Source: Quadrisphaera sp. RL12-1S (GTDB lineage Bacteria > Actinomycetota > Actinomycetes > Actinomycetales > Quadrisphaeraceae). Taken from it: DNA of 64,000 bases. Under the pieces are notes generated by a model. The model searched no databases. It was given only the letters and a program-made list of their open reading frames with translations, and was not told the origin of the DNA. A program made the position numbers and the translations under genes. How positions within the stretch are numbered: the stretch's first letter is position 1; each line of letters opens with the position of its first letter. Positions 22,445 to 50,293 of this stretch are shown here, one piece after another. The stretch spans positions 62,001-126,000 of the forward strand of contig NZ_JACNME010000004.1 in NCBI RefSeq assembly GCF_014270065.1, written 5' to 3'.

Positions 22445-22513
22445 AAGGGCATTACAGCAACGTGATCACATGACCCGCACCACCGGCTCCTGCTGCCCTT
22501 CCCGGATGACGAC

Positions 22514-23170: not shown

Positions 23171-23240
23171 GATGTGCACCGCCGTCGGCCCGCGTGGCCT
23201 CGGGTTGGCGTCGCACGGTCCGCGTCCAGCGTCCGGACGA

Positions 23241-23329
23241 GGATCCCATCTGCGACGGACCGGGGCTCCGGGCGTCACGAAGCCGCGAGGTGCACCGGGG
23301 CGGGCGGTCAGCGGTCCCCTGCTGCGACC
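23241..23329. repeat. Dispersed intergenic repeat, copy A (long form)
   Basis: 89 bp between the LysE-like gene and the tetR gene. Begins with core GGATCCCATCTGCGACGGA (23241-23259), passes through GCGGGCGGTCAGCGG, and ends with a second core-like GGTCCCCTGCTGCGACC (23313-23329). Copies B and C share both ends and the centre. Confidence 0.75.
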
Positions 23330-23368
23330 TGCCGCGGCATCGTCGGGGAAGGTCGCGCAGGCATCTGC

Positions 23369-23968: not shown

Positions 23969-24005
23969 ACGAACACCTTACAGGACAGGTCTGAGATCGT
24001 ACTCG

Positions 24006-24034
24006 TTGCAAAGTCAGAACCGTTCTGCTCTACT
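24006..24034 (+). promoter_or_regulatory. Promoter of the TetX-like gene with embedded operator palindrome
   Basis: -35 TTGCAA (24006-24011), 17-bp spacer, -10 TCTACT (24029-24034). The spacer contains CAGAACCGTTCTG (24015-24027), a perfect inverted repeat with a 1-bp centre, the classical position for a TetR repressor that blocks RNA polymerase. Confidence 0.6.
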
Positions 24035-24072
24035 TCTCCCAGTCGGCAGCACCAACGGAGACGGAGCGGGAC

Positions 24073-25224: not shown

Positions 25225-25343
25225 GGGCGTGGCCGTCTCATCACCGACCCCGACGACCCCACTCACGCCCCCGGATGCTGAGCCGGCCCCGACCGGTGAC
25301 CCATCCCTGCAGCTCGACGCAGTTCCCGAAAGGACAGACCTCC

Positions 25344-25652
25344 GTGAACGACCCCCTCATCCTCATCAACCCCTTCTCCATTCCCACCGACGCGGTCGAC
25401 GCCTTCGTCGAGCGCTGGGAGGAGAACACCCACGACCTTCGAAGCGCTCCCGGGTTCGGCGGCACGGTCCTGCATCGCGCCATCGACTCCACGGCGACGT
25501 TCCAACTGGTCAACATCGCCTACTGGGACAGCGAGGAAGCGTGGCGCGCTGCAACCGGCGACCGCCGCGTCGCCCCGGTCTCCACCCCCGCAGCAGCCTC
25601 GCGTCACCACATCACCCCCTATCCCGCGCTGTACCGCGTGATCTCGCGCTAG
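25344..25652 (+). CDS. Antibiotic biosynthesis monooxygenase (ABM)-domain protein
   Basis: 102 residues from GTG 25344, preceded by AAAGGA at about 25329-25334. A single ferredoxin-like ABM/dimeric alpha-beta barrel domain: INPFSIPTDAVDAFVERWEE, then an APGFGGTVLHRA strand-turn and YWDSEEAWRAA. Such proteins act as cofactor-free oxygenases or as small ligand-binding partners. It lies 119 bases after the TetX-like gene on the same strand and probably shares its regulation. Confidence 0.85.
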   Translation: MNDPLILINPFSIPTDAVDAFVERWEENTHDLRSAPGFGGTVLHRAIDSTATFQLVNIAYWDSEEAWRAATGDRRVAPVSTPAAASRHHITPYPALYRVISR

Positions 25653-25808
25653 CCAGTTCTACGGCCACCTGAACGGCTGCAAAAGCTGCCCTCGATGTCC
25701 CCAACGCCGAGGGCAGGCGTCATGAAGCGCCTGTGCTGACGGAGTCCCTGCCTGACGGGCTCGGCGCCGATCGCATGGACTTGAAGGGGCCCGAGTGCGC
25801 ACGGGTAG

Positions 25809-25894
25809 CGATCCGATCTGCGACGGACGACGGTCCCGAGCGCCGGGGCGCCGCGCTGTGCGCCAAGGCGGGCGGTCAGCGGTCCTCGGTGAGA
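25809..25894. repeat. Dispersed intergenic repeat, copy B (long form)
   Basis: 86 bp between the ABM gene and the DUF6869-like gene. Core GCGATCCGATCTGCGACGGA (25809-25828), then CCCGAGCGCCGGGG and AGGCGGGCGGTCAGCGGTCC as in copies A and C. The downstream gene's -10 box starts 19 bases after its end. Confidence 0.75.
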
Positions 25895-25924
25895 CGGCTC
25901 GGACAGGTTGGCTAGCGTCCGGGC

Positions 25925-26344
25925 ATGGACGTCGAGCGGACCCGCTTGGTCGAGGCCTACTGGCGGAACAACCGGCGCCTCACCGCCCGTACAGACGCCC
26001 CCGGGTCCCAGCCTGCTTCGTCGGCGGACAACACCGCCGACGAGGATGCCGACTTTTGGGCTGTCGAAGCCGTCGACGAGGCATCTCAGAGGTGGAGCGC
26101 CGCCGATGTCGTCGACCTGCTGGAGGACCTGCTCTCAGCCGACGACGCAGACCCCATCTACGTCGGCGCTGGCCCCCTCGAGGAGCTGCTCCATGAACGC
26201 CCCGAGGTGAGTTCCGTCGTCGCCGAGCGGTGTCGACGTTCGGACCTCGCTGAAAGGTGGCACGCCGCCCTGTCGACAGTCATATGGGACGAGCGGCATC
26301 TCCAAGAACTCGCACCGCTACGGCCCTGGCTGCCTTTGCCCTAA
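25925..26344 (+). CDS. Small acidic protein, DUF6869-like
   Basis: 139 residues. The central part, WSAADVVDLLEDLLSADDAD followed by VGAGPLEELLHE, resembles the DUF6869 family of uncharacterised small proteins. No membrane segment or signal peptide. ATG 25925 is exactly 6 bases after a TAGCGT -10 box (25913-25918) with no Shine-Dalgarno, so it is probably leaderless and has its own promoter. Function unknown. Confidence 0.7.
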   Translation: MDVERTRLVEAYWRNNRRLTARTDAPGSQPASSADNTADEDADFWAVEAVDEASQRWSAADVVDLLEDLLSADDADPIYVGAGPLEELLHERPEVSSVVAERCRRSDLAERWHAALSTVIWDERHLQELAPLRPWLPLP

Positions 26345-26575
26345 CCCTGCCCTCCACGAGGAACGGGCGAAGGCGCCGCGAGTTGGGACGGCTCCGGGCC
26401 GCCGGGGCGTCCGGGTGGCGGTCCCTCCGCGAGGCACGACCGCAGGGTGAAGCCACTCACCGAAGGTGGACACGGCGAAGCGTCGTCGACAAGATCGCCT
26501 GAACCGAGCTGTTGAGCCGGGGTGAACCATGCGGTCGCCGTCCAGCCGCAGCGACTACCGGCGGAGGCCCACGCC

Positions 26576-26962
26576 ATGGGAATGACCGTCTGGCTTGTCA
26601 AAGACTCCCCACGAGACCCCCGTCGCCACCACAAGAAGCCCAACAATCGGCGGACGAGGTCTGAAATCCGAAGCAGGACCTACGCCCCGCCAGTGGACTC
26701 CCTCGACGATGAGGAAGAGCTGACGCACTTCCTGGCCTTCCACCCCGTCGCGAGTGAGTTGCCGATGCTGTCCCGCTGGGATCCAGCTGGCCGGCCCTGG
26801 TGCCAAACGCCTGACGAAATTGAGTGGATCGCGGCTGAGGTGCAGCGGGCTCTGCTGCAGATTGAACCTGGAAGCCAGACGGGAGAAATGCTCGAGCAGC
26901 TGCTCGGGCTAGCACGTCGCGCGATGGCGGAAAACCTGCTCATGGAGGTCGCACCGGACTAG
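26576..26962 (+). CDS. Hypothetical protein, 128 residues
   Basis: ATG 26576 follows GGAGG (26563-26567) by 8 bases, the best ribosome-binding site in this stretch; an in-frame ATG at 26522 lacks one. Basic N-terminal third (RRHHKKPNNRRTRSEIR), acidic middle (DSLDDEEELTHFLAFH) and a helical C-terminus. No known family recognised. The 230 bases before it hold a weak relative of the dispersed repeat (CGGGGCGTCCGGGTGGCGGT, from about 26401). Confidence 0.6.
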   Translation: MGMTVWLVKDSPRDPRRHHKKPNNRRTRSEIRSRTYAPPVDSLDDEEELTHFLAFHPVASELPMLSRWDPAGRPWCQTPDEIEWIAAEVQRALLQIEPGSQTGEMLEQLLGLARRAMAENLLMEVAPD

Positions 26963-27207
26963 GCCTTGGGGCGGGCAGGGTGGTCAGCGTGCCGATGACC
27001 GGTTCAGGATCCCGGCTGAGACGGGCCGCGCCGCCAGCCATCACATCTCGCGGTAGGGGTGAGGGCGTCCGGGTAGAGGTCGGCGAACGACACACGATCG
27101 CGGTTATTCGTCGGTCCGGCCCGCACATGGCAATCGGTTGGTCACGGACGGTCCTCGGGGCCGTCGGCGCAGCCGCCACCGCAGACCGCCCGGTGCACTG
27201 GAGGCCC

Positions 27208-27245
27208 TTGACCCCACCACGGCGACACCCCGACGATCATCGTCG
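27208..27245 (+). promoter_or_regulatory. Promoter with palindrome in front of the paralogous pair
   Basis: -35 TTGACC (27208-27213), 18-bp spacer, -10 GACGAT (27232-27237), start codon GTG at 27245, 7 bases later. A perfect inverted repeat CGACGAT-C-ATCGTCG (27231-27245) covers the -10 and the transcription start, as a repressor site would. The flanking CCACCAC and GTGGTGG extend the symmetry. Confidence 0.5.
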
Positions 27246-27940
27246 TGGTGGCCTCCGCTGACGACCCTGCCTCTGGGACACCGGGCTCCGACTGGTCTCA
27301 GCACGTCGAGGACTGCGTCGACCTAGGCCGAGCCGCCGTCGATGACGGACTCCTTGCCAGCGCCACCTCCATCGAGACGGCGCTGATCGAACGCCGCTAC
27401 ACCCGCGGGCGCCGCGGCGGGCAGTGGGACCCACCGCCCGGACCGGCCTCAGGCGTCATCTCGCAGCTGACCCCGACGTCGGTGGACCTCCAGGCCGGCG
27501 GCCAGGACGACGACGCCCTCGCCACCACCGCAGAGGCGATCACCGACCGGCTCGTCACGCTCCTGGGCGTCCCTGACTCCCGTGGCCCGGTGCCGGACAC
27601 CGACCAGGTCGAGGCGCTGTGGGAGCGCCCGGACCTGGCGGTGGTGGTGAGCTTCCTGCCGTCGTGGTCCTCGCAGTGCAGCTTCGCCCCTGGGGTGACC
27701 CCCACGGGCACGCTCTGGCTGAGGCTGTCGCGCCCCGACGTCACCGACACCGAGGAAGACCCCGAGCGAGCCCGCCACCTGGCCCGGAACGGCTCCTCGG
27801 TGGAGCGCTGGCACGTAGCCGCTCAGGCGCCGCTGCCCAATGACGTGGTCGCCCTGCTGGAGAGCGACGAGGACCCCACCGTGGTTCGCGCCGTCCGCGC
27901 TGGAGCCGACCGGCGCAAGTGGTTGAGCACCCGGCCCTAG
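27245..27940 (+). CDS. Unknown protein, first of a tandem paralogous pair
   Basis: 231 residues from GTG 27245 (27248 possible). Soluble, acidic. Its last 45 residues (VERWHVAAQAPLPNDVVALL, then DEDPTVVRAVRAG) match the same region of the next protein (MQRWYLAAQDDLPADVVQAL, then DDEPAVVAALKA), and both contain an ERRYTRG/ERAGWRR-type segment near residue 40 with GGxW. Probably old tandem duplicates. The C-terminal unit resembles helical leucine-rich-variant repeats. Function unknown; an immunity-type role is one possibility among several. Confidence 0.7.
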   Translation: MVASADDPASGTPGSDWSQHVEDCVDLGRAAVDDGLLASATSIETALIERRYTRGRRGGQWDPPPGPASGVISQLTPTSVDLQAGGQDDDALATTAEAITDRLVTLLGVPDSRGPVPDTDQVEALWERPDLAVVVSFLPSWSSQCSFAPGVTPTGTLWLRLSRPDVTDTEEDPERARHLARNGSSVERWHVAAQAPLPNDVVALLESDEDPTVVRAVRAGADRRKWLSTRP

Positions 27941-27985
27941 CGGGGGGGCCACCACCCCTGCTCGCTGAACAGGAACGAGGTCGCT

Positions 27986-28675
27986 GTGCCCGAGAGCCCC
28001 CATCCTCTGACCAACCCCGCCCCGCCCACCGGTGTGATGCAGCTCGTCGAGGAGGCGGCCCATCGGGGACTGCTCAAGGACGGCGATTCGTTGGCTAGTG
28101 GCATCGAGCGCGCCGGGTGGCGCCGCGACACCCACGGCGGCTGGTGGACCTACGAGCCCGACCCGGCCTGGAGGCTCGGCTCGACGATCGACCCGGCCGA
28201 CGTGTCGATCTTCGCGACCGGCTCAGATGCTGTGGTCGCGGCTGCGGCTGACCAGGTTGCCTCCCACCTGACCGCAGGTGGCGTCGAAGGGCTGGTGGGC
28301 GGTGGGGCAGATGAGCTCGGTGTGCGCAGCTGGCGGGGGTCAGCGGTCAGCGTGGACCTGTACTTCTCGCCGACCAAGACCGTCGACTTCCCCGGCAAGA
28401 AGATCGAGATCCCCTGCTGCCTGCAGCTGGCGGTGGCGCGTCAGGACGCCCCCAGCGACCGTCAGCCATCCGACCACGAGCGGGCACGCCGGGCGGCCCA
28501 ATCAGGCACCCGCATGCAGCGGTGGTACCTCGCCGCTCAAGACGACCTCCCCGCCGACGTCGTCCAGGCGCTGGCCCTGGACGATGAGCCCGCGGTCGTG
28601 GCCGCCCTGAAGGCCAGCGCCGGCCAGCGAGAGCGTTGGCGCAAGCGCGTGGCTGACGGTGTGGAAGACGCCTGA
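27986..28675 (+). CDS. Unknown protein, second of the tandem paralogous pair
   Basis: 229 residues from GTG 27986, 45 bases after its paralogue, with GAGG about 8 bases upstream, so it is probably translated from the same transcript. Shares the N-terminal LLKDGDSLASGIERAGWRRD region and the C-terminal WYLAAQDDLPADVVQAL helix region with the first copy, while the middle has diverged (VDLYFSPTKTVDFPGKKIEI). No signal peptide. Function unknown. Confidence 0.72.
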   Translation: MPESPHPLTNPAPPTGVMQLVEEAAHRGLLKDGDSLASGIERAGWRRDTHGGWWTYEPDPAWRLGSTIDPADVSIFATGSDAVVAAAADQVASHLTAGGVEGLVGGGADELGVRSWRGSAVSVDLYFSPTKTVDFPGKKIEIPCCLQLAVARQDAPSDRQPSDHERARRAAQSGTRMQRWYLAAQDDLPADVVQALALDDEPAVVAALKASAGQRERWRKRVADGVEDA

Positions 28676-28753
28676 ACTCTGCTGGGCGCCTTGCAGGCCT
28701 CGGTACTGCGATGTACGCCGGGCTGACCATCACGACAGCGCCCTGACCGGAGA

Positions 28754-28843
28754 GGGATCCCCACTGCGACGGATGCCAGCCCCGAGCGCCAGGGAGTCGC
28801 GATGAGCCATGAGGCGGGTGGTCAGTGGTCGTCTCTGCGACGA
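28754..28843. repeat. Dispersed intergenic repeat, copy C (long form)
   Basis: 90 bp between the paralogous pair and the convergent hydrolase. Core GGGATCCCCACTGCGACGGA (28754-28773), CCCGAGCGCCAGGG, AGGCGGGTGGTCAGTGGTC, and the closing GTCTCTGCGACGA (28831-28843). Confidence 0.75.
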
Positions 28844-28900
28844 GCAGCACGGTGAGCTGCCCGTCGCCGAGGAGTCCTTGAGGTGCCCGATGAGTGGTGG

Positions 28901-29782
28901 CTACGGACTCGCCGGCACGTTGGCCGGCTCAGCCAAGAAGTCTTGTATCGCCCGCGTGACCTGCTGGGGTCGCTCCAGCGGCGGCAGGTGACCGGTATCG
29001 GCGAGGTCGAGGCGCTGCGCGCCGGGGATCCCCTCGGAGAGCAGGTCCGAGACCGCTTGGATGGCGGGTACGTCCTCCAGGCCGTTGATGACCAGCGTTG
29101 GAGCGGAGATCTCGACCAGCCTGTCGGATGCGAGCAGCGCAGGGACGCGCTCGGGGACTGGATGTTCGCTCCACTCGCGCTCGAAGATCCTCTCGAGCAT
29201 GACCAACGCCTGGTCCCACACGACGGCGTCCACGTCGGCTGCGGTGCGCCGCGGGCCGGCCACCATGATCCGCGCCTGCACCTCAGCCATGGCATGGATG
29301 TCCTCGGAGAGGATCTGCGTGGCCGTGCCAGCGGCGTAGGCCCGCAGCCGCGTTTCCGGGACGGCGGCCAGGAGCTCTTCGCGCACCTGCTGCTGCCACT
29401 CATGGGGCCAGGCATGCCCGAGTACCCCGGAGCTGATCAGCACCAGGCCAGCGACGCGCTCAGGGGCCTCCAGCGCGGCCTGCAAGGCATAGCCTCCGCC
29501 CATCGAGCAGCCCACCAGCACGCCGTCCTGGACGCCGAGGGCGTCCAGGAGCCCCAGCAGATCCTCGTGGTGTGCGTAGTCGCCCCGCGCTGGATCGGAG
29601 TCTCCGTACCCACGCCAGTCGTAGCGGATGACGCGGTGGTCGGCCGCTAGTGCGGTGAAGGGCCCGTCCCACATTCGCCGGTAGGCGATGCCGGCGTGTG
29701 AGAAGACGATGGCAGCGCCCTCACCTGCCTCCTCGAAAGCGATGTCGGCCTTGTCGATCCTCACCACCGGCATGATCCGCAT
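28901..29782 (-). CDS. Alpha/beta-fold hydrolase
   Basis: 293 residues (ATG 29782; ATG 29773 would remove three). Catalytic triad recognisable: nucleophile in GCSMGG (about residue 93), acid Asp in NGLEDVPA (about 237) and His in DTGHLPP (about 266). The FSHAGIAYRRMWDGP oxyanion-hole region and YDWRGYGDSDPARGDY are typical of the esterase/haloperoxidase-like group. Cytoplasmic; substrate unknown. Divergent from the next gene with 67 bases between. Confidence 0.9.
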   Translation of the reverse strand: MRIMPVVRIDKADIAFEEAGEGAAIVFSHAGIAYRRMWDGPFTALAADHRVIRYDWRGYGDSDPARGDYAHHEDLLGLLDALGVQDGVLVGCSMGGGYALQAALEAPERVAGLVLISSGVLGHAWPHEWQQQVREELLAAVPETRLRAYAAGTATQILSEDIHAMAEVQARIMVAGPRRTAADVDAVVWDQALVMLERIFEREWSEHPVPERVPALLASDRLVEISAPTLVINGLEDVPAIQAVSDLLSEGIPGAQRLDLADTGHLPPLERPQQVTRAIQDFLAEPANVPASP

Positions 29783-29849
29783 GCTCGCAGAGCGATGGTC
29801 TCGGTCAGCGCTCAGACGCTGACTACCGGCCCGCGCCTACAGTCCTCGT

Positions 29850-30365
29850 GTGCTGATCACTGCGTGGCGGCTGGAGATGCCTCAGGTGCCCGGGTACCGC
29901 TTCACGTGGCTGGGTCCCTACACCTCGCACTGGCTGACAGCCGAAGCCGAGGAGCTCGTGCGCTTCATGGACCACGAGCACAGCGCCACCCTGCCCGAAC
30001 CCCGCGACATGGGACTCTTCGCCCGTCATCGCGACGTTGGCGACCCCCTGCTGTGTGGCTGCGACTCCGAGGCTGGGCTGCGGGCGTGGTTCGGGGACTA
30101 CCTGCCTGCCCTGCAGCACCAAGGAGCCCACGTCGCCGCCTACACCGTTGACGAGGGCGGCATCGTCGACCGTGACGACCACCAGCTGATCTTCATCGAG
30201 AGTCGAGCGGAACTGGTGCAACGCCAGGGGAACTTGCCCTTCGCGCCGCTGGTGCGCAGTTCCGCAGGGTCCCGCCTGGCGGTGTACGCCGCCAATCCCG
30301 GGAAGTACGACTACGTCCCCGGCCAGTCGCGGTGGCAGTCCGCGCTCACGTCGTCGACGGAGTGA
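29850..30365 (+). CDS. Hypothetical protein, 171 residues
   Basis: GTG 29850 is 6 bases after TACAGT (29838-29843), suggesting a leaderless mRNA. Trp/Tyr-rich, soluble, with a YRFTWLGPYTSHWLTAEAEE N-terminal segment and a C-terminal FIESRAELVQRQGNLPF region. No family recognised; no signal or membrane segment. Codon use is that of a true gene. Confidence 0.65.
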   Translation: MLITAWRLEMPQVPGYRFTWLGPYTSHWLTAEAEELVRFMDHEHSATLPEPRDMGLFARHRDVGDPLLCGCDSEAGLRAWFGDYLPALQHQGAHVAAYTVDEGGIVDRDDHQLIFIESRAELVQRQGNLPFAPLVRSSAGSRLAVYAANPGKYDYVPGQSRWQSALTSSTE

Positions 30366-30437
30366 CCGGACGGGCGTCCGCGACGCCCGGATGAACAACT
30401 GAGGCTGCCCACCGGTGATCGCTCGTAGTGTTCGCAG

Positions 30438-31325
30438 ATGGTGGTGCGTGCAGCCGTCTTGTCCGATGTTCACGCCAACCCCTTCGCGCTGCGCGCAGTC
30501 CTGCAGGACGTGCGACGGGCTGGAGCCGACGTGATCGTCAACCTCGGGGACCTGGTGGCCGGTCCCTGGCCGGTGGAGACCGTCGAGGAGCTGTTCGCAG
30601 CGGGATTTCCGGTGGTTTCGGTCCGTGGCAACGGGGACCGCATGGTCGCTGACGCCTACGACCAGCGCCCCGGCTGGACCGATGACGTCCCGCCTCCCGC
30701 GCGGACGATGGTCACGTGGGCCGCCTCGCAGATCCGGCGGCAGGAGCGAGACCTGATCGGGTCGGCTCCTCTGCGGACCAGGCTGACCGTCGCCGGGCTC
30801 GGTGAGGTGGAGCTCTTCCACGCCACTGCCCGCAGCGATGAGGAGATCGTCCTGGAGACCACCGACGACGACGTCGCAGCGGAGGCGTTGCAAGCGCTGC
30901 TGCCGCGGCCATTCGCGTCCAGTGGGCAGGGTGGCGTCGAGGACTTCTACCCGTTGCTCGCGGTCAGCGGGCACACCCACCTGCCCACCGAACGGGTCGC
31001 GGGCGCGGTGCGCTGGGTCAACGCCGGCAGCGTGGGCAAGCCGTTCGACCACCCCAGTGCCTCGTGGATGCTGCTGGGGCCCGGCGTCGAGTGGCGGCGC
31101 ACCGACTACGACGTCGAGGCCGCTGCCGCAGCGGCACGCGCGTTGGCTCCTGCCCCTGGAGCAGTTCTTGAAGACGCGGCCCTCGAGGCGGTGGCTGAGG
31201 AGTTCATCGCCTCCCTGCGCCCAGGGGGGCGCCGGGAGGTGCTGGACGTCTTCGCGCCTCTGGCAGCTGCCACCTACGGGCACTGGGCCACTCGGTCTCG
31301 GCTGGACGTCCTCGACGGGGGATGA
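30438..31325 (+). CDS. Metallophosphoesterase (YfcE/calcineurin-like)
   Basis: 295 residues. The four metal-binding blocks are present: SDVHANP (about residue 9), NLGDLV (35), GNGD (63, where GNHD or GNCD is usual) and SGHTHLP (about 181) followed by NAGSVGKP. The fold hydrolyses phosphomono- or diesters with two metal ions. ATG 30438 lies 6 bases after a TAGTGT -10 (30426-30431) without a Shine-Dalgarno: leaderless. An extra C-terminal helical tail of about 60 residues follows the catalytic core. Confidence 0.9.
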   Translation: MVVRAAVLSDVHANPFALRAVLQDVRRAGADVIVNLGDLVAGPWPVETVEELFAAGFPVVSVRGNGDRMVADAYDQRPGWTDDVPPPARTMVTWAASQIRRQERDLIGSAPLRTRLTVAGLGEVELFHATARSDEEIVLETTDDDVAAEALQALLPRPFASSGQGGVEDFYPLLAVSGHTHLPTERVAGAVRWVNAGSVGKPFDHPSASWMLLGPGVEWRRTDYDVEAAAAAARALAPAPGAVLEDAALEAVAEEFIASLRPGGRREVLDVFAPLAAATYGHWATRSRLDVLDGG

Positions 31326-31423
31326 CCGCCGCCGCCCTCCGCACCAGGAGGGTGCCCGGTCGAGGATGGTCAACGAGACGCCAGCGACTCGCCGTCGCCT
31401 ACCCATCCCTGTAGACCTGCGCC

Positions 31424-32182
31424 GTGACCGAGGACCTCACCGCCGAGCTCGTCACCGACCGACCCCGCACACCCCAGCAGTGGGAAGACCTCTTCGCCGG
31501 CACCTGGCCCCCCTACATCGACGCAGACCCCATCGCCGCCGCAGCCCTGCCCGACGTCCACGCCACCTTCCCCGACCTGCAGGTGGCCCTCACCCGCCCC
31601 GCCGGGTACGACCACGACGAGCAGCTCGCCGGCGCCGCCTGGGGCGTCCCCATCGTCTGGGACGGCGACACCGAGCGACTGCCGGCCGGGTACAGCGACG
31701 CTCTCGTCCGGTCCCTGGATGACCGCACCCGCGGGGCGGTGGCCGACACGCTGGTGATCTGCGCTGCTCAGGTCCACCCCTCCTGCGCCCTCGCCGGCAC
31801 AGCGGCCCATCTGCTGGCCCACCTCATCCAGACCGCGGCCGAGCAGGGGCTGCGCAGGGTGGTCGCGCCGCTGCGCCTGACCGGCAAGCACCGCTACCCG
31901 CTGATCCCGATCGAGGTCTACGCGCGGTGGCGCCGACCGGACGGGGACGCCTTCGGCCCCTGGCTGAGGGCTCACGAGCGGATGGGCGCCAAGAAGCTGT
32001 CGACCACGGCGGCTTCTCAGTGCTTCCTCGGCTCGGTCGAGCAGTGGCAGACCTGGAGCGGACTGGACCTTCTCGCCAGCGGCGACTACGTCGTTGCTGG
32101 GGCACTCTCAACTCTGCGCATCGAGGTCGATGAGGACGCAGGGCGCCTTGACGAGCCGGGCGTGTGGGTCCGTCACCGGTGA
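31424..32182 (+). CDS. GNAT-like acyltransferase-fold protein, unknown substrate
   Basis: 252 residues. The region VVAPLRLTGKHRYPLIPIEV (about 146) followed by RWRRPDGDAFGPWLRAHERMGAKK resembles a group of actinobacterial GCN5-like N-acetyltransferase proteins; the usual Q/RxxGxG/A CoA loop is not obvious, so activity is uncertain. GTG 31424 follows TAGACC (31412-31417) by 6 bases, again without a Shine-Dalgarno. Confidence 0.65.
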   Translation: MTEDLTAELVTDRPRTPQQWEDLFAGTWPPYIDADPIAAAALPDVHATFPDLQVALTRPAGYDHDEQLAGAAWGVPIVWDGDTERLPAGYSDALVRSLDDRTRGAVADTLVICAAQVHPSCALAGTAAHLLAHLIQTAAEQGLRRVVAPLRLTGKHRYPLIPIEVYARWRRPDGDAFGPWLRAHERMGAKKLSTTAASQCFLGSVEQWQTWSGLDLLASGDYVVAGALSTLRIEVDEDAGRLDEPGVWVRHR

Positions 32183-32404
32183 CAAGCACGCCGGCGGCTG
32201 ACCGGACGGCGATCGGGACTGCCGCTGGCACCGTATGCCGCCAAGTGATCCTCAAACCAGACGTGGACGGACCACTGGCCCGGTCAAGAGCACCAGCCGT
32301 GTGCCGTCCTCGGCCTGCCAGGACTGGACCGACGAGGGCCTCAGTGTCGCGCGGTCGGCCGCACATCCAGTGACGCCGGCGTGAGCGGGAGGCATGCTGG
32401 GGGA

Positions 32405-33145
32405 GTGGGGACACCGCAAGCCGACGCGATGCGCGAGGTCGTGGCCCACGTCCACCCGGTGCTCACCGCCGCGGGGTTCCGCAAGCGCCGACACACCTTC
32501 AACCGCACCGTCGAGCGCGGCCTCGTCCACGTCATCAAGTACCAGCTCGGCCCTGCTGACCCGCCCGGCGTCGAGGAGGTCCCTGGGGTGCACATGAACC
32601 TGCGGGGCCTGTTCGACGTCTCGCTCGGGGTCTACATCGCCGAGTCTTGGCAGCTCCAACACGGCCGCCGCAGCGATCACGACCCAACGGCCGTCACCGG
32701 CCAGGCCGTGAAGGAGTGGGTGAACGACTACGACTGCGACATCCGCGAGGGGCTCGTCAGCGATGACCCGGCCTTGAACTGGATGTTCCCCCTGCACGAC
32801 CCGCAGTCCATGGCAGAGCTGCAGGTGCAGCTGCTGCACAGCGACGCCTTGCCGTGGCTGCAGCGCTTCAGCACGCGGCAGTCCATCCTCGAGCAGCTCG
32901 AGGCCGCGCCCGTGGACTCCCGCGACATCTGCGGTGATGCCGGCGCTGGCCCGGACCGTTTGCTGGCCGTGCGGATGCACCTGGGCGCCGGGAACCGGCA
33001 GTCAGCCCAGCAGCACTTTGAAGCGTGGGTGGCGCACTGCCGCGCAGAACTGGCCCCGGGAGCCGAGGACGACGGCCACCTGGAGTTCCTTGCGGAGTTC
33101 GCGGACTCGACGGGCCTGATGATGCCGTTGCGGGATGCGGTCTGA
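32405..33145 (+). CDS. DUF4304 domain protein
   Basis: 246 residues from GTG 32405, which is 6 bases after CATGCT (32393-32398). The N-terminal half matches DUF4304: VLTAAGFRKRRHTFNRTVER with a following beta-sheet (VIKYQLGPADPP, VHMNLRGLFDVSLGVYIAES). DUF4304 proteins are often found near polymorphic toxin immunity genes, but no toxin is visible here. Cytoplasmic, function unknown. Confidence 0.75.
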   Translation: MGTPQADAMREVVAHVHPVLTAAGFRKRRHTFNRTVERGLVHVIKYQLGPADPPGVEEVPGVHMNLRGLFDVSLGVYIAESWQLQHGRRSDHDPTAVTGQAVKEWVNDYDCDIREGLVSDDPALNWMFPLHDPQSMAELQVQLLHSDALPWLQRFSTRQSILEQLEAAPVDSRDICGDAGAGPDRLLAVRMHLGAGNRQSAQQHFEAWVAHCRAELAPGAEDDGHLEFLAEFADSTGLMMPLRDAV

Positions 33146-33210
33146 GCCCGACGGCGGCGCGTCGCGTCGGCGAGCACTGATGAGTGCTGCTGCTTCCGCT
33201 GGCCGGTGAG

Positions 33211-33228
33211 TGATCCCATCTGCGACGA
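33211..33228. repeat. Dispersed repeat, copy D (core only)
   Basis: TGATCCCATCTGCGACGA, in the gap after the DUF4304 gene. The remainder of the long element is not recognisable. Confidence 0.6.
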
Positions 33229-33306
33229 ACTGCGCCGTCGGCCGGTGGAGCGAGCCGAAAGGCCTACGGCGTCCGGTACACGGTCGGCTACCGGGCCGCC
33301 GGCCCT

Positions 33307-33560
33307 TCAGGTCAAGGGCAACCCACGCGTGGACGTGACGTGGTCTGTGACCGGTCCGGCGTAGTCACCCGTCGACAACGTCGCCGACGGCTCCACCATC
33401 ACGATCACCGCCCCTTCCACAGAGACCGGGCGGTGCTCCACACCCCGGGGCACGACGTGTACGACCTGCGGACCCAGCACCACCACGGTCTCCGCCCCCG
33501 CTGACCTCTGGTGCAGGTGCAGCTGCCCCGACAGCACCCGGACAGATGAGCCGCCACATG
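33307..33560 (-). pseudogene. Cupin-domain gene remnant (C-terminal part only)
   Basis: The frame reads VLSGQLHLHQRSAGAE, then VVHVVPRGVEHRPVS and MVEPSATLSTGD to a STRGLPLT end: the second half of a single-domain cupin, including the PRGxxH metal-site strand. The first half, which should carry the first HxH motif, is absent; upstream the frame runs into unrelated CGGSSVRV residues. No plausible start or ribosome-binding site. Best read as a decayed or truncated gene. Confidence 0.55.
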
Positions 33561-33636
33561 GACTCGCAGCGCACGGAGATCATGCACTCCGACTCCGCAG
33601 GCGCCCCGGAAGGCGGTGGTCAGCCTGCCGCTGATC

Positions 33637-34062
33637 TCAGTGCGTCCACGTGCGCAGGCGAGCGATCTCGTTCTGGTTGTGTCGCAGCACGAAGCCAGCC
33701 ACACGCCCGCTGATGGGAAGGAAGGTGATGGGTGTCCAACGCCGCCGACCATCCGCATCGCGCCACGTGACCGCTGGCCAGTCGGTGACGGCCACGACGG
33801 CATGACGCGGGATCGTCCGCGACCACAAGATCCCGTGGACGGTGACGCCGCGTGAGTCGCAACGGACCTGCAGACGTGGTGAACGCACGAGCACCACGAC
33901 TGCCAGCACCGCCAGGGGTAGGGCCGCAGCCTGGCTGAGCACGGGGACCGGCGGGTCGACGACGAGTGCGCCCGCTACCAGCGCAGCCGCCGGCGCCAGC
34001 AGCGCGCAGGCCACCTTGGTGATGGGCAACGGGGAGAGCACCACTGCCCCACCCAAGCTCAA
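33637..34062 (-). CDS. Small membrane protein with PH-like domain
   Basis: 141 residues: two hydrophobic segments at about 12-34 and 41-58, then a soluble tail RLQVRCDSRGVTVHGILWSR that looks like the bPH/PH domain strands of small actinobacterial membrane proteins. Function unknown. Convergent side faces the cupin remnant. Confidence 0.7.
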   Translation of the reverse strand: MSLGGAVVLSPLPITKVACALLAPAAALVAGALVVDPPVPVLSQAAALPLAVLAVVVLVRSPRLQVRCDSRGVTVHGILWSRTIPRHAVVAVTDWPAVTWRDADGRRRWTPITFLPISGRVAGFVLRHNQNEIARLRTWTH

Positions 34063-34098
34063 GATCGTGCTCGATCCAGCCGAATGACCACCCCGAGC

Positions 34099-34169
34099 GT
34101 CCTTCTCTGCGACGGACGGGCCGGGCGGCGTCCTGTCGAGGTGCGCCGGGACGTCCGGATGGCGGTCAC
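34099..34169. repeat. Dispersed repeat, copy E (intermediate form)
   Basis: Core CCTTCTCTGCGACGGACGGG, then CGAGGTGCGCCGGG and GGCGGTCACC, parallel to the centre of copy A (CGAGGTGCACCGGGGCGGGC, GCGGTCAGC). Sits between the PH-like gene and the next hypothetical gene. Confidence 0.6.
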
Positions 34170-34231
34170 CAAGCGTGCGGCTGCCGCTCCGGGGCGGCCT
34201 ACCTCAGCGGACTTGCGGCACCATCACTGCC

Positions 34232-34678
34232 ATGGCCGCAGACCAGCGCCGACGCTGTGCCCATGTGCTCGACGCAAGGACTGTCGTGCTCGTCATCGAC
34301 CGAGACGGAGAGGTCGACTACTACGCCACCGCCGCTGAGGCCGCTCGCGACATGGAAGCCATCGACGTCCGCGGCGAGGAGTACCTCGGCGTCTACGGCC
34401 TGGACGGCGAGGTCTACAGCGTGGGACTCACCGGGGAGCGGCACCACGAGGTGCCCGTTCTGACTGCGACCGGACAGCGTGACCTCGTCCGTCTTCGGGA
34501 ACTGCTGCAGGCGGCCCACGCACGTTCACCATCTCGGGTCACCACCGCGGACCCAGCGAGCTTCGTCAACGCGAGGGCGATGTGGGAGTGGGACCGACGC
34601 CGCCTGCGGTGGCCGAGGTGGCTCGATCGACGGCTGCATGGGACGGCACCTGCACTGCTGCCGACGCAGCAGCGGTGA
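34232..34678 (+). CDS. Hypothetical protein, 148 residues
   Basis: ATG 34232. Starts with a beta-rich domain (RTVVLVIDRDGEVDYYATAA, then YLGVYGLDGEVYSVGL) followed by an Arg/Trp-rich helical tail. No family recognised. Soluble. Bracketed by repeat copies E and F. Confidence 0.62.
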   Translation: MAADQRRRCAHVLDARTVVLVIDRDGEVDYYATAAEAARDMEAIDVRGEEYLGVYGLDGEVYSVGLTGERHHEVPVLTATGQRDLVRLRELLQAAHARSPSRVTTADPASFVNARAMWEWDRRRLRWPRWLDRRLHGTAPALLPTQQR

Positions 34679-34710
34679 CGGGATCCGCAGGGCCGACCGG
34701 TCCGGGCGGC

Positions 34711-34727
34711 GATCCCCTCTGCGACGA
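34711..34727. repeat. Dispersed repeat, copy F (core only)
   Basis: GATCCCCTCTGCGACGA between two convergent genes. Confidence 0.6.
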
Positions 34728-34808
34728 CCAGCGAACGTTGCCATCGGCGCATGACGAGAGCCGCAGCGTGCGGGCGGAGGTCGTCGACAGGGCAGGTGCG
34801 CGCTGGCC

Positions 34809-35162
34809 CTACGCGGGACCGAACGTGGCGGCCAGCACCCGCCAGGTCTCCCCGTCACGCACCCAGAGGCGGTTGTAGACCAGCCGTGCGCTGATCACGG
34901 ATCCCCCCTGCTCAGCTTCCACGAGGGCCGTCATGCGCGTGCGGCCCGTCGTGGGGCCTTCGTCGACGTCGAGGGTCTCCTGGACCAGGCTCCGCACGCG
35001 CAGTGCGCCGCTGCGATGGCTCTCGAGGTCGTCAGCCTTGGTGAAGACTCCGCCGTCGGGGCCCGCCGCCACGAGGCGCGGGTGCAGCAGCCCGTCCAGG
35101 GCATCGACGTCACCGTTGCGCTGGGCGGTCTGCAGCGCCTGTTCAGCCGTTGTGAGGTCCAC
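34809..35162 (-). CDS. NTF2-like (SnoaL/DUF4440) protein
   Basis: 117 residues with the single cone-shaped NTF2-like fold: LTTAEQALQTAQRNGDVDAL then LLHPRLVAAGPDG and a C-terminal RLWVRDGETWRVLAATF strand pair, typical of DUF4440-type ketosteroid-isomerase-like proteins. GTG 35162 is 6 bases after CAGTCT (minus strand). Ligand or reaction unknown. Confidence 0.85.
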   Translation of the reverse strand: MDLTTAEQALQTAQRNGDVDALDGLLHPRLVAAGPDGGVFTKADDLESHRSGALRVRSLVQETLDVDEGPTTGRTRMTALVEAEQGGSVISARLVYNRLWVRDGETWRVLAATFGPA

Positions 35163-35245
35163 AGCACCAGACTGCAGTCGGTCTGACGCGGCGCCAAGGG
35201 CTGTTTGTTGACGGTGAACGCCTCTGCCCAGCCAGCCCGTCGCAG

Positions 35246-35267
35246 GGGGATCCGTTCAGAGACGGAG
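35246..35267. repeat. Dispersed repeat, copy G (degenerate core)
   Basis: GGGGATCCGTTCAGAGACGGAG retains the GATCC and GACGGA ends of the core. Confidence 0.4.
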
Positions 35268-35413
35268 TGGAGGCCACCTACCGGCGGGCCCGACGAGCAC
35301 CGCGGCGTTCGGTGGACTGCCGTCGAGCGAGGCCGGGCGACCCGAGCCGTCGCCGTTCTGCCGACCCCGTCACGCTCTACGAGGAGCTGGCCGACCGGAG
35401 GCTCCGGGGCACA

Positions 35414-35935
35414 TCAGGAGCACGCGTCCTTCAGCTCGTAGCGAGTGGTCCCCACCGTGGAGTGCTCCACGCCCCTGGCGCTGTAGGTCATGGACATCGC
35501 CTGTGCCGAAGCATCCGCGTCGCTCAGTCGAGACACCTCCACGACCACGTCGTAGGTCGTGCCCGCCGCCAGCTGAGCCCCGGCGGCAGGCACGCGCCCT
35601 CTCCACGACGGGATGTCGACCGGCGGGCCGACGGAGCTGCCGATCCCCAGGCCGTCGATGGGGAAGACCACGGCATCGACCACCCTCAGGCCCTCGGGGT
35701 GGACGAGGCCCAGCGCCTCCACGGTGATCGGCCCCTGCGGCACCTGGACGACTTCGCCGAGGAGGATCGACCCTCCCTCGCGAAGCGGTGAGCACAGCAC
35801 CCCGCTGCCCCCTCCGCCGAGGTGCAGCGGACCCTCACCGACCTGCCCGCTGCCGAGGCTGGTGCCGATGACCACCGCGGCGAGGAGGAGCCATCGGCCG
35901 GGCGCCTTCACGTGCTTCGTCACGGTCTTCTCCAC
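35414..35935 (-). CDS. Exported or membrane-anchored hypothetical protein
   Basis: 173 residues from GTG 35935. N-terminal KHVKAPGRWLLLAAVVIGTS is a signal peptide or anchor; the rest is a beta-rich, Gly-containing extracytoplasmic domain with one Cys pair (VLCSP and DACS) that could form a disulphide. No known family. Confidence 0.65.
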   Translation of the reverse strand: MEKTVTKHVKAPGRWLLLAAVVIGTSLGSGQVGEGPLHLGGGGSGVLCSPLREGGSILLGEVVQVPQGPITVEALGLVHPEGLRVVDAVVFPIDGLGIGSSVGPPVDIPSWRGRVPAAGAQLAAGTTYDVVVEVSRLSDADASAQAMSMTYSARGVEHSTVGTTRYELKDACS

Positions 35936-36060
35936 CGATCCGGTCAGCGTCGACCCTCGACGGGCGACGGGCAGTCCCAGAGCAGCTGATCATGCCCCAC
36001 AACACGCTGGAAGGGAGGCGGCAGAGCGCCCCGACTCGCCGCTCCCCGCGCCGCACCTCG

Positions 36061-46923: not shown

Positions 46924-47712
46924 GTGACCGCACCGCACCTCACCGTGGGCCGCGTGGCCGAGCTGACCGGCGTCAGCGTCCGCACGCTGCACCACTACGA
47001 CGCCGTCGGGCTGGTGCGCCCCTCGGGGCGCACCCCCGCGGGCTACCGCCTGTACTCCGCCGACGACGTCGAGCGGCTGCAGGCGGTGGTCGTGTACCGC
47101 CGCCTCGGGTTCTCCCTGGAGGAGGTCGGTGCGCTGCTGGCGGCCGACGGCGAGGAGCTCGTCGACCACCTGCGGCGCCAGCGCGACGCGGTCACGGCCC
47201 GGCTGCGGGAGGACGCAGACCTCCTCGCGGCGATCGAGAGAGCACTGGAGGCGAGGATGACCGGGATCCAGCTGACCCCCGCCGAGCAGCGCGAGCTGTT
47301 CGGCGACTCGTTCAGCGAGGACTACGCCGTCGAGGCGCACGAGCGCTGGGGGCGGACCGAGCAGTGGGCGCAGTCGCAGCAGCGCACCGCGGCGTACACG
47401 AAGGCGGACTGGGAGCAGGTGAAGGCCGAGGGCGACGCCCTCAACGCCGCCTTCGCCGAGCTGCTGGCCGCGGGGGAGCCCGCCGACGGCGACGCCGCCA
47501 CCGCCGTGGCCGAGCGGCACCGCCTGCACGTGTGCGAGCGCTTCTACGACATGGACCACGCGATGCACCGGTCGGTGAGCCAGCTCTACGTGGACGACCC
47601 GCGCTTCACCGCCACCTACGAGGCGGTCGCCCCCGGGCTGGCCCAGTACGTCCGCGACGCCGCCCACGCCAACGCCGCCCGGCACGGCGTCACCGGGGGG
47701 TGCGCCGGGTGA
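46924..47712 (+). CDS. MerR-family regulator with TipAS antibiotic-recognition domain
   Basis: 262 residues from GTG 46924 (GTG 46915 also in frame). Winged HTH at residues 5-75 (VGRVAELTGVSVRTLHHYDA, then YRLYSADDVERLQ), a coiled-coil dimerisation helix, and a C-terminal TipAS domain (FGDSFSEDYAVEAHERWGRT to HRLHVCERFYDMDHAMHRS). TipA-type proteins bind thiopeptides and other drugs and activate their own long-spacer promoter, which is present just upstream. Only its own gene is an evident target. Confidence 0.92.
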   Translation: MTAPHLTVGRVAELTGVSVRTLHHYDAVGLVRPSGRTPAGYRLYSADDVERLQAVVVYRRLGFSLEEVGALLAADGEELVDHLRRQRDAVTARLREDADLLAAIERALEARMTGIQLTPAEQRELFGDSFSEDYAVEAHERWGRTEQWAQSQQRTAAYTKADWEQVKAEGDALNAAFAELLAAGEPADGDAATAVAERHRLHVCERFYDMDHAMHRSVSQLYVDDPRFTATYEAVAPGLAQYVRDAAHANAARHGVTGGCAG

Positions 47713-47728
47713 TCGGCCGGCCGGCCGA

Positions 47729-48706
47729 TCAGGCGGGGCAGCCGGCGACCCCCGGGGCAGCACCCGTGCTGGCCAGCGCCTGGGCGGAGCGGCCCGCCCG
47801 GCACTGCTCCAGGACCTCCTGCGCTGACAGCTCGCCCTGGTAGGCGCTGAACCACGCGAGGTCGCCGACGAGCTGTCCGGGCCCGGCTCCGGCGGACGCC
47901 CAGGACGACAGGTCGTCCTGGGCCACCCGCAGGACGGCCCGGGTGTAGGCGCTCCCCCTGGACCCCGCCGGGTCGTCCGCGCGCAGCTGGCCGTCCAGGT
48001 AGAGCCGCAGGCCGGCGGGGGACTGCACCAGCGCGACGTGGTGCCAGCGGCCGTCCGCCCAGTCCACCCCGACCGCGGTGCGCAGGACGACGCGGGCGGA
48101 GCCCGACGGCGCCACCCCGGCGACCACCCGCCCGCTGCCGTCGAGGAAGACGACCCTGTCGCGCACCACCGGGGCCCCGGCGGCCGGGGCGGCGTCTCGC
48201 ACCTCGACGAGCAGTCCCTGGCGGGTCGTGGTGCGGAACCACAGCTGGACGCTGAGGACGGCGTCGGCGGCGATGCTGGTCGCGTACTGCATCTGGGCAC
48301 CCCCCGAGCCGGTCCCGAGGGCCACGGCGCGCCCGGTCCCGCCGGTGGTCTGGGCGTCTCTGGGGCACGGTCCGTCGGTGGTGGACCCCCTGGTGGTGCC
48401 GGTGTCCCAGACCCCACCGGCGTAGGCCGCCGCGCCGCCGGCACCACGACCGCTCAGCGCGGCCGTGCTGCCGTCCTGCAGGGACCACAGCAGGGGGGCG
48501 CGGTGCTGCGCCCGCGCGTCGACGGCGGCGTCCTGGCAGCGGAACCACGTGCTCGAGGTCGCCGTCGTCGTCGTCGCGGGGGAGGCCGTCGCCGCGGTGA
48601 AGGCCGAGCTCGCCCCCGGCGCCGAGACGGCGAGGAGCACGGCGAGGAGCACGGTGAGGAGGATCGCCACGGCGGTGGGTGCGCGCCCGCGCCCGGTGCT
48701 GCTCAC
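47729..48706 (-). CDS. Exported LamG-domain protein with SipW-type signal
   Basis: 325 residues. N-terminal hydrophobic signal (about 10-35) ends in SSAFTAATASPAT, the camelysin/TasA-like A-F-T-A pattern of SipW-dependent signals; residues 150-300 form a LamG/concanavalin-type jelly roll (VLSVQLWFRTTTRQGLLVEV, DGRWHHVALVQSPAGLRLYLDG). A Cys-containing C-terminus follows. GTG 48706 overlaps the signal-peptidase stop by four bases, so translation is coupled. Likely a surface carbohydrate- or matrix-binding protein. Confidence 0.85.
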   Translation of the reverse strand: MSSTGRGRAPTAVAILLTVLLAVLLAVSAPGASSAFTAATASPATTTTATSSTWFRCQDAAVDARAQHRAPLLWSLQDGSTAALSGRGAGGAAAYAGGVWDTGTTRGSTTDGPCPRDAQTTGGTGRAVALGTGSGGAQMQYATSIAADAVLSVQLWFRTTTRQGLLVEVRDAAPAAGAPVVRDRVVFLDGSGRVVAGVAPSGSARVVLRTAVGVDWADGRWHHVALVQSPAGLRLYLDGQLRADDPAGSRGSAYTRAVLRVAQDDLSSWASAGAGPGQLVGDLAWFSAYQGELSAQEVLEQCRAGRSAQALASTGAAPGVAGCPA

Positions 48707-49539
48707 GGCCGCAGCGCCGCGGCGACGGAGGGACTCGCGCGCAGCTGCAGGACAGCGCCCTCCCAGCGCCGCGGCACGCGGAGGGACGCCACCTGGCCGT
48801 AGCGCAGGTCGACCTGGCCGACGACGGCCTGCTGGCCGCCCACGACCGCCGTGGCGGTGACGTGCTGCGGCAGCAGCCCGGTGGAGACCACCCGCACGTC
48901 GTGACCGGCTGGGCCGAGGACCACCGCCGACCCGCCCCAGGGGTGCACCAGCACCGTGGTGACCAGGAACGCGACCGAGCAGGCGGCCAGGCGCGCCGGT
49001 CCGCGCCAGCTGGCGGGCAGGCCCCTCGCGGCTGCTCCCGCCGCGAGCGCCGCGAGCAGCAGCGGCAGGGCGCGCAGGGCGAACCCGGCGGCGGGCAGGA
49101 CCACGGCCACCCGCCCCACCAGCGCGGCCCGCTCCAGCGGCCAGGGGTCCTCGGCGGTGTTCAGGTCCCCCCGGGTGCGCCACTGCCCGTCCGCCCCGCG
49201 CGCGACGCGGTGCACGTGGACGGCTGCGCCGTCCTGCGGCGGCACGAACGCGACGAGGTCCCCCGGCACCAGGCCGCCGAGCGGGGCCGGCGTCGTGACC
49301 ACCAGGGACCCGACGGGGGCCGCTGACCCCATCGAGGGTGACTCGATGACCCACAGCCGGGCTCCGGAGCCCACCACCGCGGCGACGGCCAGCGCGGTGA
49401 GCAGCAGGCACACCGTCACGGCCACCGGGGTGCGCCGCCCGCGGGAGAGCGCCCCGGGGACCGGTCGGGCGTGCCGGGCGTGTCGGGGCGGGGCGCTGCG
49501 CCGCTGGGGCCCGGACCCGGTCAGGAGGAGAACGTCCAC
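48703..49539 (-). CDS. sipW: ER-type (SipW-like) signal peptidase I
   Basis: 278 residues. Membrane segment at about 40-58, nucleophile Ser69 in ESPSM, then GDLVAFVPP and His110 in HVHRV where bacterial enzymes have Lys: this Ser/His dyad marks the archaeal/ER/SipW type. The TRGDLNTAEDPWPL box (122-135) agrees. Two further hydrophobic segments (about 150 and 185) and a C-terminal beta domain are extra. It should cleave the signals of its two operon neighbours. Start overlaps the upstream gene end by 19 bases. Confidence 0.88.
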   Translation of the reverse strand: MDVLLLTGSGPQRRSAPPRHARHARPVPGALSRGRRTPVAVTVCLLLTALAVAAVVGSGARLWVIESPSMGSAAPVGSLVVTTPAPLGGLVPGDLVAFVPPQDGAAVHVHRVARGADGQWRTRGDLNTAEDPWPLERAALVGRVAVVLPAAGFALRALPLLLAALAAGAAARGLPASWRGPARLAACSVAFLVTTVLVHPWGGSAVVLGPAGHDVRVVSTGLLPQHVTATAVVGGQQAVVGQVDLRYGQVASLRVPRRWEGAVLQLRASPSVAAALRP

Positions 49540-50183
49540 GTCAGGGGTTGTGAGGCGGTCAGTCCCTGGACGGTGTTGTCAGCACCGGTGGAGGGGAAGG
49601 TCACGCTCACCACGACCGTCAGCGACGCTCCGGGTGCCACCGGCACGGGGGCGAGCGCCGTGGTCCCGGACAGGCCCGAGAGCGCACCGGTGTACACGGT
49701 CGCCCCGCCTGGACCGGTGGTGGCGATGTCCACGCGCAGTGCGGAGCACAGGTCACCCGAGCCGGAGGCGGTGGCGCCGCTGGCGCGAGCGCTCGTGCAG
49801 GGCGCGGCGGTGAGGGTCGCCGCGGTCGCCGCGACGCTCCCCCGGTTGGTCAGGGTGACGGTCTTGGTGCTCGACCCGCCCGGGACGAGCAGGCCGCCGC
49901 CGTACTTGTTGATGGTCGAGCAGGTGGAGGACCCGGAGTCGGTGGTGGTCCCCGCCCCGGTGCTGGCGCAGGAGGTGCCGTCGGAGGACTCCACCAGGAC
50001 CAGGGTCCCCGTCGTGGCCGAGTTGGGGTCGTTCCGCACAGCGACGGTGAAGGCGGAGACGGCGCTGCCGGCCGTCAGGGTCGCGGCGGTGACGGTCAGC
50101 ACGGCCGCGGACGCCCACGCGAGCACCGTGCCGCGGCGGCTGGAGCGCCGGTCGTCCGGGGTGTTGCGGCGGTGGTTCGGCAC
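49521..50183 (-). CDS. Camelysin/TasA-like exported protein with SipW-type signal
   Basis: 220 residues from GTG 50183. Basic N-terminus, hydrophobic core VLAWASAAVLTVTAATLTAG, then SAVSAFTVAVRND, the SipW-dependent cleavage pattern. The mature part is Thr/Ser/Gly-rich beta sandwich with several Cys, resembling CalY/TasA-type secreted proteins that in Bacillus form matrix fibres. First gene of the operon with the signal peptidase and LamG protein. Fibre formation here is inferred. Confidence 0.75.
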   Translation of the reverse strand: MPNHRRNTPDDRRSSRRGTVLAWASAAVLTVTAATLTAGSAVSAFTVAVRNDPNSATTGTLVLVESSDGTSCASTGAGTTTDSGSSTCSTINKYGGGLLVPGGSSTKTVTLTNRGSVAATAATLTAAPCTSARASGATASGSGDLCSALRVDIATTGPGGATVYTGALSGLSGTTALAPVPVAPGASLTVVVSVTFPSTGADNTVQGLTASQPLTWTFSS

Positions 50184-50293
50184 ACCCCTCGATCGGCCCG
50201 TGTCCCGGCGCGGCTGAGCGGTTGGTCGTCCACGACATGTCTGCTCTTCGAGGGCGCCCTCAGCTGCGCCGGCGGACGCGGGGTCCTCGCCAC

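Follow-up and report, generated by a model that had tools for sequence, protein, structure and literature searches.

A signal peptidase gene linked to genes for TasA-like and LamG-domain proteins in Quadrisphaera, and peptidase-LamG fusions in Actinomycetota

A minus-strand operon of three genes (50183-47729) in Quadrisphaera sp. RL12-1S encodes, in this order, a TasA-like protein (P0001), an endoplasmic reticulum (ER)-type signal peptidase (P0002) and a LamG-domain protein (P0003). The operon lies in a 64,000-nucleotide stretch of contig NZ_JACNME010000004.1 (positions 62,001 to 126,000), hereafter the window, and coordinates refer to positions within it. The peptidase is probably dedicated to a TasA-like fiber and to the LamG protein as its donor-strand partner, a TapA-like starter or tip. 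The evidence consists of the anatomy of the operon, the recurring linkage of its genes, peptidase-LamG fusions, a shared export motif, and the matching of N-termini within loci. Detailed knowledge of TasA-type fibers comes from Bacillus and from archaea, and the module appears to be of the TasA/SipW kind already known; what seems to be new is the LamG partner and the fusions, which predict self-processing.

Architecture of the three-gene operon

A first-pass annotation had placed the three genes in one operon, and they are indeed present with exactly the span proposed (47729-50183). All three lie on the minus strand and begin with GTG: P0001 (220 residues, 49521-50183), P0002 (278 residues, 48703-49539) and P0003 (325 residues, 47729-48706). 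With the start used, the genes for P0001 and P0002 overlap by 19 nucleotides, and the start of P0003 overlaps the stop of P0002 by 4 nucleotides (GTGA).

The catalytic residues named in the first-pass annotation were located in P0002 by script: Ser69 (codon 49333-49335, minus strand) lies in an SPSM box and His110 (codon 49210-49212, minus strand) in the sequence VHRV. Both are invariant in alignment A2 of SPSM-type peptidases, and the corresponding columns of the SxSM and HR boxes are also invariant in alignment A1 of the fusions. P0002 matches TIGR02228 (E=4.7e-10, 39.6 bits) under the cut-off of 51.85, so it is called an ER-type peptidase of the SPSM subfamily based on its catalytic residues and its place in a tree, and not as a TIGR02228 equivalog. 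The Bacillus SipW model NF046067 scores 13.1 bits and its cut-off of 190 is not reached. The earlier description of a SipW-type peptidase with two likely substrates in one operon is supported, with a LamG linkage that recurs in 13 families and takes the form of a fusion in 15 modules, but P0002 is no equivalog of Bacillus SipW. Hydrophobic segments of P0002 span residues 39-57, 144-162 and 180-198. Residues 204-270 (48730-48930, minus strand) form a C-terminal beta domain in a low-confidence single-sequence model, with a block predicted local distance difference test (pLDDT) score of 52-80, and this domain is predicted to follow the third membrane segment and to lie outside the membrane. SPSM-type peptidases in A2 carry such a beta ectodomain, in which a conserved NTGLLP-like motif resembles one in TasA-like proteins; P0002 is without the fourth membrane segment present in the other peptidases of that alignment.

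P0001 alone matches neither TasA nor camelysin models (PF12389, NF046066). A profile of 18 TasA-like proteins, P0001 and 17 relatives, has TasA as its only PDB matches at E<0.01 (5of1, E=0.0027; 8aur, E=0.0028). For the camelysin/TasA-like identity proposed earlier, the wider profile hints at remote homology to TasA, and the models searched with P0001 alone do not. A 5-row profile did not reach the solved TasA, its best PDB match being AbpX at E=0.17, and a relative of P0001 in locus L164 comes near the PF12389 cut-off (20.6 versus 22.5 bits). Relatives of P0001 could be aligned from four other modules.

P0003 passes the gathering cut-off of Pfam PF13385 (Laminin_G_3; 40.9 versus 27.6 bits) over residues 143-298 (47813-48280, minus strand), in agreement with its original assignment as a LamG-domain protein. 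No TapA model in Pfam or NCBIfam matched P0003, and whether these libraries hold one was not checked. The NCBIfam fimbrial protein TafC (NF052521) was considered as a named relative and rejected: unrelated LamG proteins match this model too, including one in Methanosarcina, and its cut-off was never reached (0 of 15 genomes, among them the window's genome, G000). The LamG-like end of TafC weakly matches some peptidase-LamG fusions, and a literature search on TafC found nothing.

A shared export signal

Both putative substrates carry a hydrophobic signal ending in S/A-F-T, where the slash marks the predicted cut, and the serine-alanine-phenylalanine-threonine pattern reported for this pair is found in P0001 (A44-F45) and in P0003 (A35-F36). 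In P0001, the signal peptide (50055-50183, minus strand; hydrophobic segment 20-38) reads SAVS/AFTVAV, with a predicted cut at S43/A44-F45. In P0003, it reads GASS/AFTAAT (48605-48706, minus strand; hydrophobic segment 11-29), with a predicted cut at S34/A35-F36. The cuts were placed by analogy with TasA and put Phe at P2'. As described in excerpts of PMC9674648 and PMC10151520, mature TasA starts with A-F at residue 28, and a donor-strand residue is F29. From these structure papers and alignment A3, the segment after the cut in P0001 (49995-50054, minus strand) is a predicted N-terminal donor strand. An excerpt of PMC10269814 reports that Phe at P2' hinders LepB, with no aromatic residue at that position in 143 verified LepB substrates. 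Because of the Phe at P2', the S/A-F-T sites should be poor for the housekeeping peptidase. As a control, LamG proteins from loci without a peptidase were inspected, and 14 of 16 have no A-F site after the signal. The exceptions, in L178 and L179, are LamG proteins with an A-A-F signal (seen by eye and missed by the regular expression) and no peptidase in the stretch examined.

Recurrence and fusion across the phylum

Relatives of P0003 occur in 56 of the 394 genomes sampled from the class. The TasA-like, peptidase and LamG genes stand in the window's order in locus L165 (genome G392), and in L163 and others the peptidase and the LamG domain form one open frame. A profile built from eight fusions (A1) finds full-length fusions, defined as matches that begin at or before model position 30 and end at or after 477, with up to 4 or 8 candidates per genome scored, in at least 13 of the 394 class genomes, from six families, and in at least 1 of 178 genomes sampled from the phylum (Actinomycetota) outside the class (G642). 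The overall A1 tallies are 212/394 and 14/178; the remaining matches are not full-length, and those read are LamG-only, peptidase-only, or peptidases whose passenger is split or of another kind. One of the last group (L247, genome G690) is also a fusion and has a LamG domain behind the peptidase that scores 78.7 bits with Pfam, and a TasA-like gene upstream.

Peptidase and LamG profiles built from such loci were run on the 95 loci with a length of 4000 bases or more: both profiles match in 40, LamG alone in 17, the peptidase alone in 37, and neither in one. Thirteen of the two-profile loci are second copies (L181-L193), which leaves 27 modules; with L247, too short for the scan and added separately, the total is 28. 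These modules come from 24 genomes and 13 families, with 15 fused and 13 as separate genes; since the loci were picked by LamG or peptidase searches, these numbers are counts and not frequencies. Of 20 modules scanned with Pfam, 19 pass the LamG cut-off, the failing one being that of G240. Among the separate-gene modules, L165, L216 and L217 have the window's order; L211, L214, L215, L218 and L219 have the peptidase and then LamG; and in L212, the TasA-like gene is on the other strand.

In the fusions, a TasA-like gene lies directly upstream in 15 of 15, and all 15 have a site of the exported A-F kind before LamG. The residue equivalent to P2', read by eye, is Phe in 13, Tyr in L169 and Met in L168. 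Based on hydropathy, the catalytic part of most fusions stands between two membrane segments, after which come a charged stretch, a further segment, the site and LamG; L163 has a beta domain between two further segments. For 14 fusions (all except L247), the mean over the last hydrophobic segment was calculated; 13 attain 1.5, and L227 has 1.29, and extra membrane segments are called in L163, L171 and L223. This succession would place the LamG domain outside the membrane with a cuttable site before it. Other passengers follow the same kind of signal in L220 (Ig-like by Pfam), L221 (short, without a match), L248 and L251. The joining of a peptidase to a passenger may be a general device, with LamG as the passenger that was searched for.

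Full-length relatives of the window's peptidase form a subfamily. A profile of five SPSM-type peptidases (A2, 287 positions) run on the 394 genomes has matches at E<=1e-12 in 100, and only six reach model position 252 or beyond: G248, G207, G392, G554, G000 and G240. TasA-like and LamG genes accompany the peptidase in all six. G240 was outside the A2 profile and matches it at E=7.7e-67, with the next match partial and at 2.3e-24; the other five members were first found through LamG. The G240 locus encodes two TasA-like proteins, a third protein in which TasA-like ends enclose a LamG-like middle part, and the peptidase. Read by eye, LamG likewise appears to lie between a TasA-like N- and C-terminus in G207 and G248 (L172 and L175; L243 is the locus of G240). 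In a tree of 66 peptidase domains, which does not contain L247, the peptidases linked to LamG are spread over three sets with good support. The set of the window has six rows (support 100/98), a set of separate-gene modules has six (99/91), and a third, which holds most of the fusions, has 20 (100/99), of which 13 are fused, two separate and five without LamG; L220 and L221 are among these five, and L248 and L251 are outside the tree.

N-terminal matching between partners

In excerpts of PMC10151520, the AFHDI sequence of TapA is described as a mimic of AFNDI in TasA. A comparable relationship was examined in the modules with the first ~22 mature residues of the TasA-like protein and its partner, windowed by hand on A-F and with the first three residues dropped. 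Over 21 modules from 12 families, own pairs scored 28.6 versus 13.9 across families, and 0 of 20000 shuffles were as high. In a reduced set (18 modules, nine families) from which L172 and L175, with LamG inside a TasA-like protein, and L178, with no peptidase, were dropped, the values were 27.8 versus 15.0, with 1 of 20000 shuffles as high and a score of 9.6 for shuffled residues. Both sets are without L211, L214, L215, L218 and L219, where the TasA-like N-terminus is not reliable, L243, L245 and L247, which were read later, and L220 and L221, which have other passengers. For L168, the TasA-like gene ~1 kb upstream was used; a nearer one was seen later. When two modules of one genome were compared, own beat swapped in four of four comparisons from two genomes, once by only 8 versus 7. 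By eye, Phe occupies P2' in 19 of the TasA-like proteins and 17 of the partners in the 21 pairs. On average, a LamG protein resembles at its N-terminus the TasA-like protein of the same locus, as TapA mimics TasA, and in the window pair this resemblance is weak. The earlier suggestion that LamG replaces TapA accordingly finds backing in own-locus mimicry on average and little in the window's own pair.

Proposed mechanism and alternative explanations

In the favored model, the ER-type peptidase would be dedicated to two Sec-exported proteins with suitable S/A-F-T sites, and cutting would expose an A-F-x-x N-terminal strand on both. Cleavage, strand donation, fiber formation and ligand binding are all predictions of this model. 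The TasA-like protein would polymerize by donor-strand exchange. The beta-sandwich of the LamG protein is closed in itself, so this protein could only donate a strand and would start or cap the fiber, as TapA does, with a lectin-like head. In relatives with a fusion, cleavage at an internal site of the same kind, either in cis or by a neighboring copy, is predicted; in other relatives, LamG would be built into the TasA-like subunit. A wider proposal, held more tentatively, is that self-processing modules are widespread in the phylum: the peptidase would be made in one chain with its lectin substrate, which would be freed at an internal TasA-type site; once released, LamG with its copied donor strand would become a fiber tip or starter; and the window would hold the split, three-gene form. 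If true, making a peptidase and its own substrate as a single chain would be unusual among export arrangements and a new way to put a sticky end on surface fibers, and the A-F site would offer a tool for lectin display.

Several observations weigh against the favored model, beginning with the window's own relatives. Peptidase matches occur in 12 of the 13 family genomes and LamG relatives in 11 of 13, and in the other 12 genomes no LamG lies at any peptidase place; outside G000, the family's LamG matches are all in frames of at least 831 residues. A congener locus read on both sides (L070) has a TasA-like gene, a further gene and a peptidase with no LamG, and the congener loci L069 and L073 end at contig ends. 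In a sample of 198 genomes of the taxonomic order, with the window's genome counted in each, relatives of P0002, P0003 and P0001 occur in 25, 36 and 2 genomes. A profile scan found LamG in none of the 26 loci fetched for 29 foreign P0002 matches in the order, where contig ends in L073 and L094 hide the downstream part, nor in L228 and L229. Most of the P0003 matches read from this sample are large LamG proteins that have a beta-propeller and an ordinary signal, and ten of these with wider flanks (L079-L088) have no peptidase nearby. A related-locus search with P0002 gave a single distant locus. The first-pass annotation proposed to follow the gene order across actinobacteria; the other genomes of the window's family did not show this order, and the pairing of peptidase and LamG recurs in 13 families of the phylum.

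Further points against the model, and some cautions, concern the pairing itself and the calls for individual genes. Beyond AFT, the window pair is near background (9.5 versus 6.8), and 40% of foreign TasA-like proteins equal it; the pairs in L167, L226, L178, L212 and L217 do not stand out either, and a similar composition or a shared origin of the two N-termini could contribute to the overall signal. LamG is not essential to the scheme, because five of the 20 peptidases in the fusion set are without LamG and other passengers occur. The LamG of G240 is seen only by the LamG profile built from these loci (E=1.6e-15, over nearly the whole length) and not by Pfam. An opposite-strand frame at 49471-50217, with a GC content at third codon positions of 0.92 versus 0.93, was preferred over P0001 by the gene caller; the minus strand is favored because relatives of P0001 at 32-41% identity occur in the same gene setting. 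Consensus scans for a sigma-70 promoter and a terminator found none at the operon. Single-sequence AlphaFold models of P0002 (pLDDT 53.5) and P0003 (37.3) were too poor for use, and Foldseek with the P0002 model gave no match at E<0.001.

Three other explanations compete with the favored model. The peptidase may process both proteins while LamG acts as an independent secreted or wall-bound lectin that binds matrix or polysaccharide and shares only the export route. A common peptidase is all that the shared signal motif and the linkage need. SipW-class motifs extend beyond the cut site, and such a motif could alone explain matched N-termini; the weak match in the window pair points the same way. 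This account is nonetheless rather unlikely: the N-terminal match persists in mature residues 4-22 and is locus-specific within one genome, and LamG is apparently inserted in TasA-like proteins in L172, L175 and L243. LamG might instead be a sensor or targeting domain that stays attached to the peptidase, with the internal A-F site of the fusions left uncut. The 15 one-frame fusions, and the beta ectodomain that SPSM peptidases themselves carry, would suit such a role, which is improbable with LamG as a separate gene in 13 modules and with the motif of exported proteins kept at the internal site in the fusions read. Finally, it is very hard to credit that the neighborhood arose by chance and that the housekeeping peptidase processes both proteins as ordinary Sec substrates. 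The other genomes of the family indeed did not show the arrangement, and the genome has three further peptidase genes of ordinary bacterial look, yet there are 28 modules, 15 fusions and six of six members in the subfamily, and 14 of 16 LamG proteins away from peptidases are without an A-F site.

Comparison with known systems

The favored arrangement, a dedicated peptidase with a fiber subunit and a strand-donating partner, resembles tapA-sipW-tasA of Bacillus subtilis in its ER-type peptidase, its two exported proteins that start with A-F (one of them TasA-like) and its overlapping genes. It differs in that LamG takes the place of the Ig-fold TapA, in gene order, and in a peptidase of the SPSM subfamily with a beta ectodomain whose relatives include peptidase-LamG fusions. 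The sipW-calY genes of Bacillus cereus (camelysins) likewise combine SipW with TasA-like exported proteins; there is no LamG there, and a second camelysin probably takes the role of TapA, according to excerpts of PMC10151520. With the archaeal-type signal peptidase I of TIGR02228, the peptidase shares the Ser and His boxes, a GD..D motif, membrane anchors and a profile match, whereas P0002 falls below the cut-off, has SPSM instead of SGSM, and has an extra membrane segment and a beta domain. Weak PDB matches of the TasA-like profiles connect the putative fiber protein to TasA fibers and archaeal bundling pili (AbpX). A literature search that covered few subscription papers or bioRxiv preprints found no title or abstract start on a pairing of SipW/TasA with LamG.

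Additional observations in the genome and the window

In the same genome, three more peptidase genes are of ordinary bacterial look (L003, L090, L091), with the type judged by resemblance. A second ER-type peptidase of 300 residues (L001/L089) is encoded at about 70000-72000 of contig C9 and has its own TasA-like protein (TYAAFSSTSTVT...), with no LamG in the 14 kb read. Elsewhere, two peptidase loci of family f20 (L075 and L104) have, by eye, several TasA-like genes each. LamG homologs in L050 and L054 are found in frames that start, by eye, like minor type IV pilins, and these may represent another route by which LamG is placed on a filament.

The operon is flanked by a convergent gene for a MerR-type regulator, whose stop codon is at 47710-47712, and by a divergent gene that resembles a membrane transporter, with its start called at 50388. 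A perfect 20-bp palindrome, gatcggccggccggccgatc, at 47711-47730 overlaps two stop codons, that of the LamG gene and that of its convergent MerR-type neighbor, and may be a two-way terminator, though the terminator scan found none. Finally, the region 22000-36000 of the window has a lower GC content (about 0.67-0.73, versus mostly 0.73-0.80 elsewhere) and many short unrelated genes, and was perhaps acquired.

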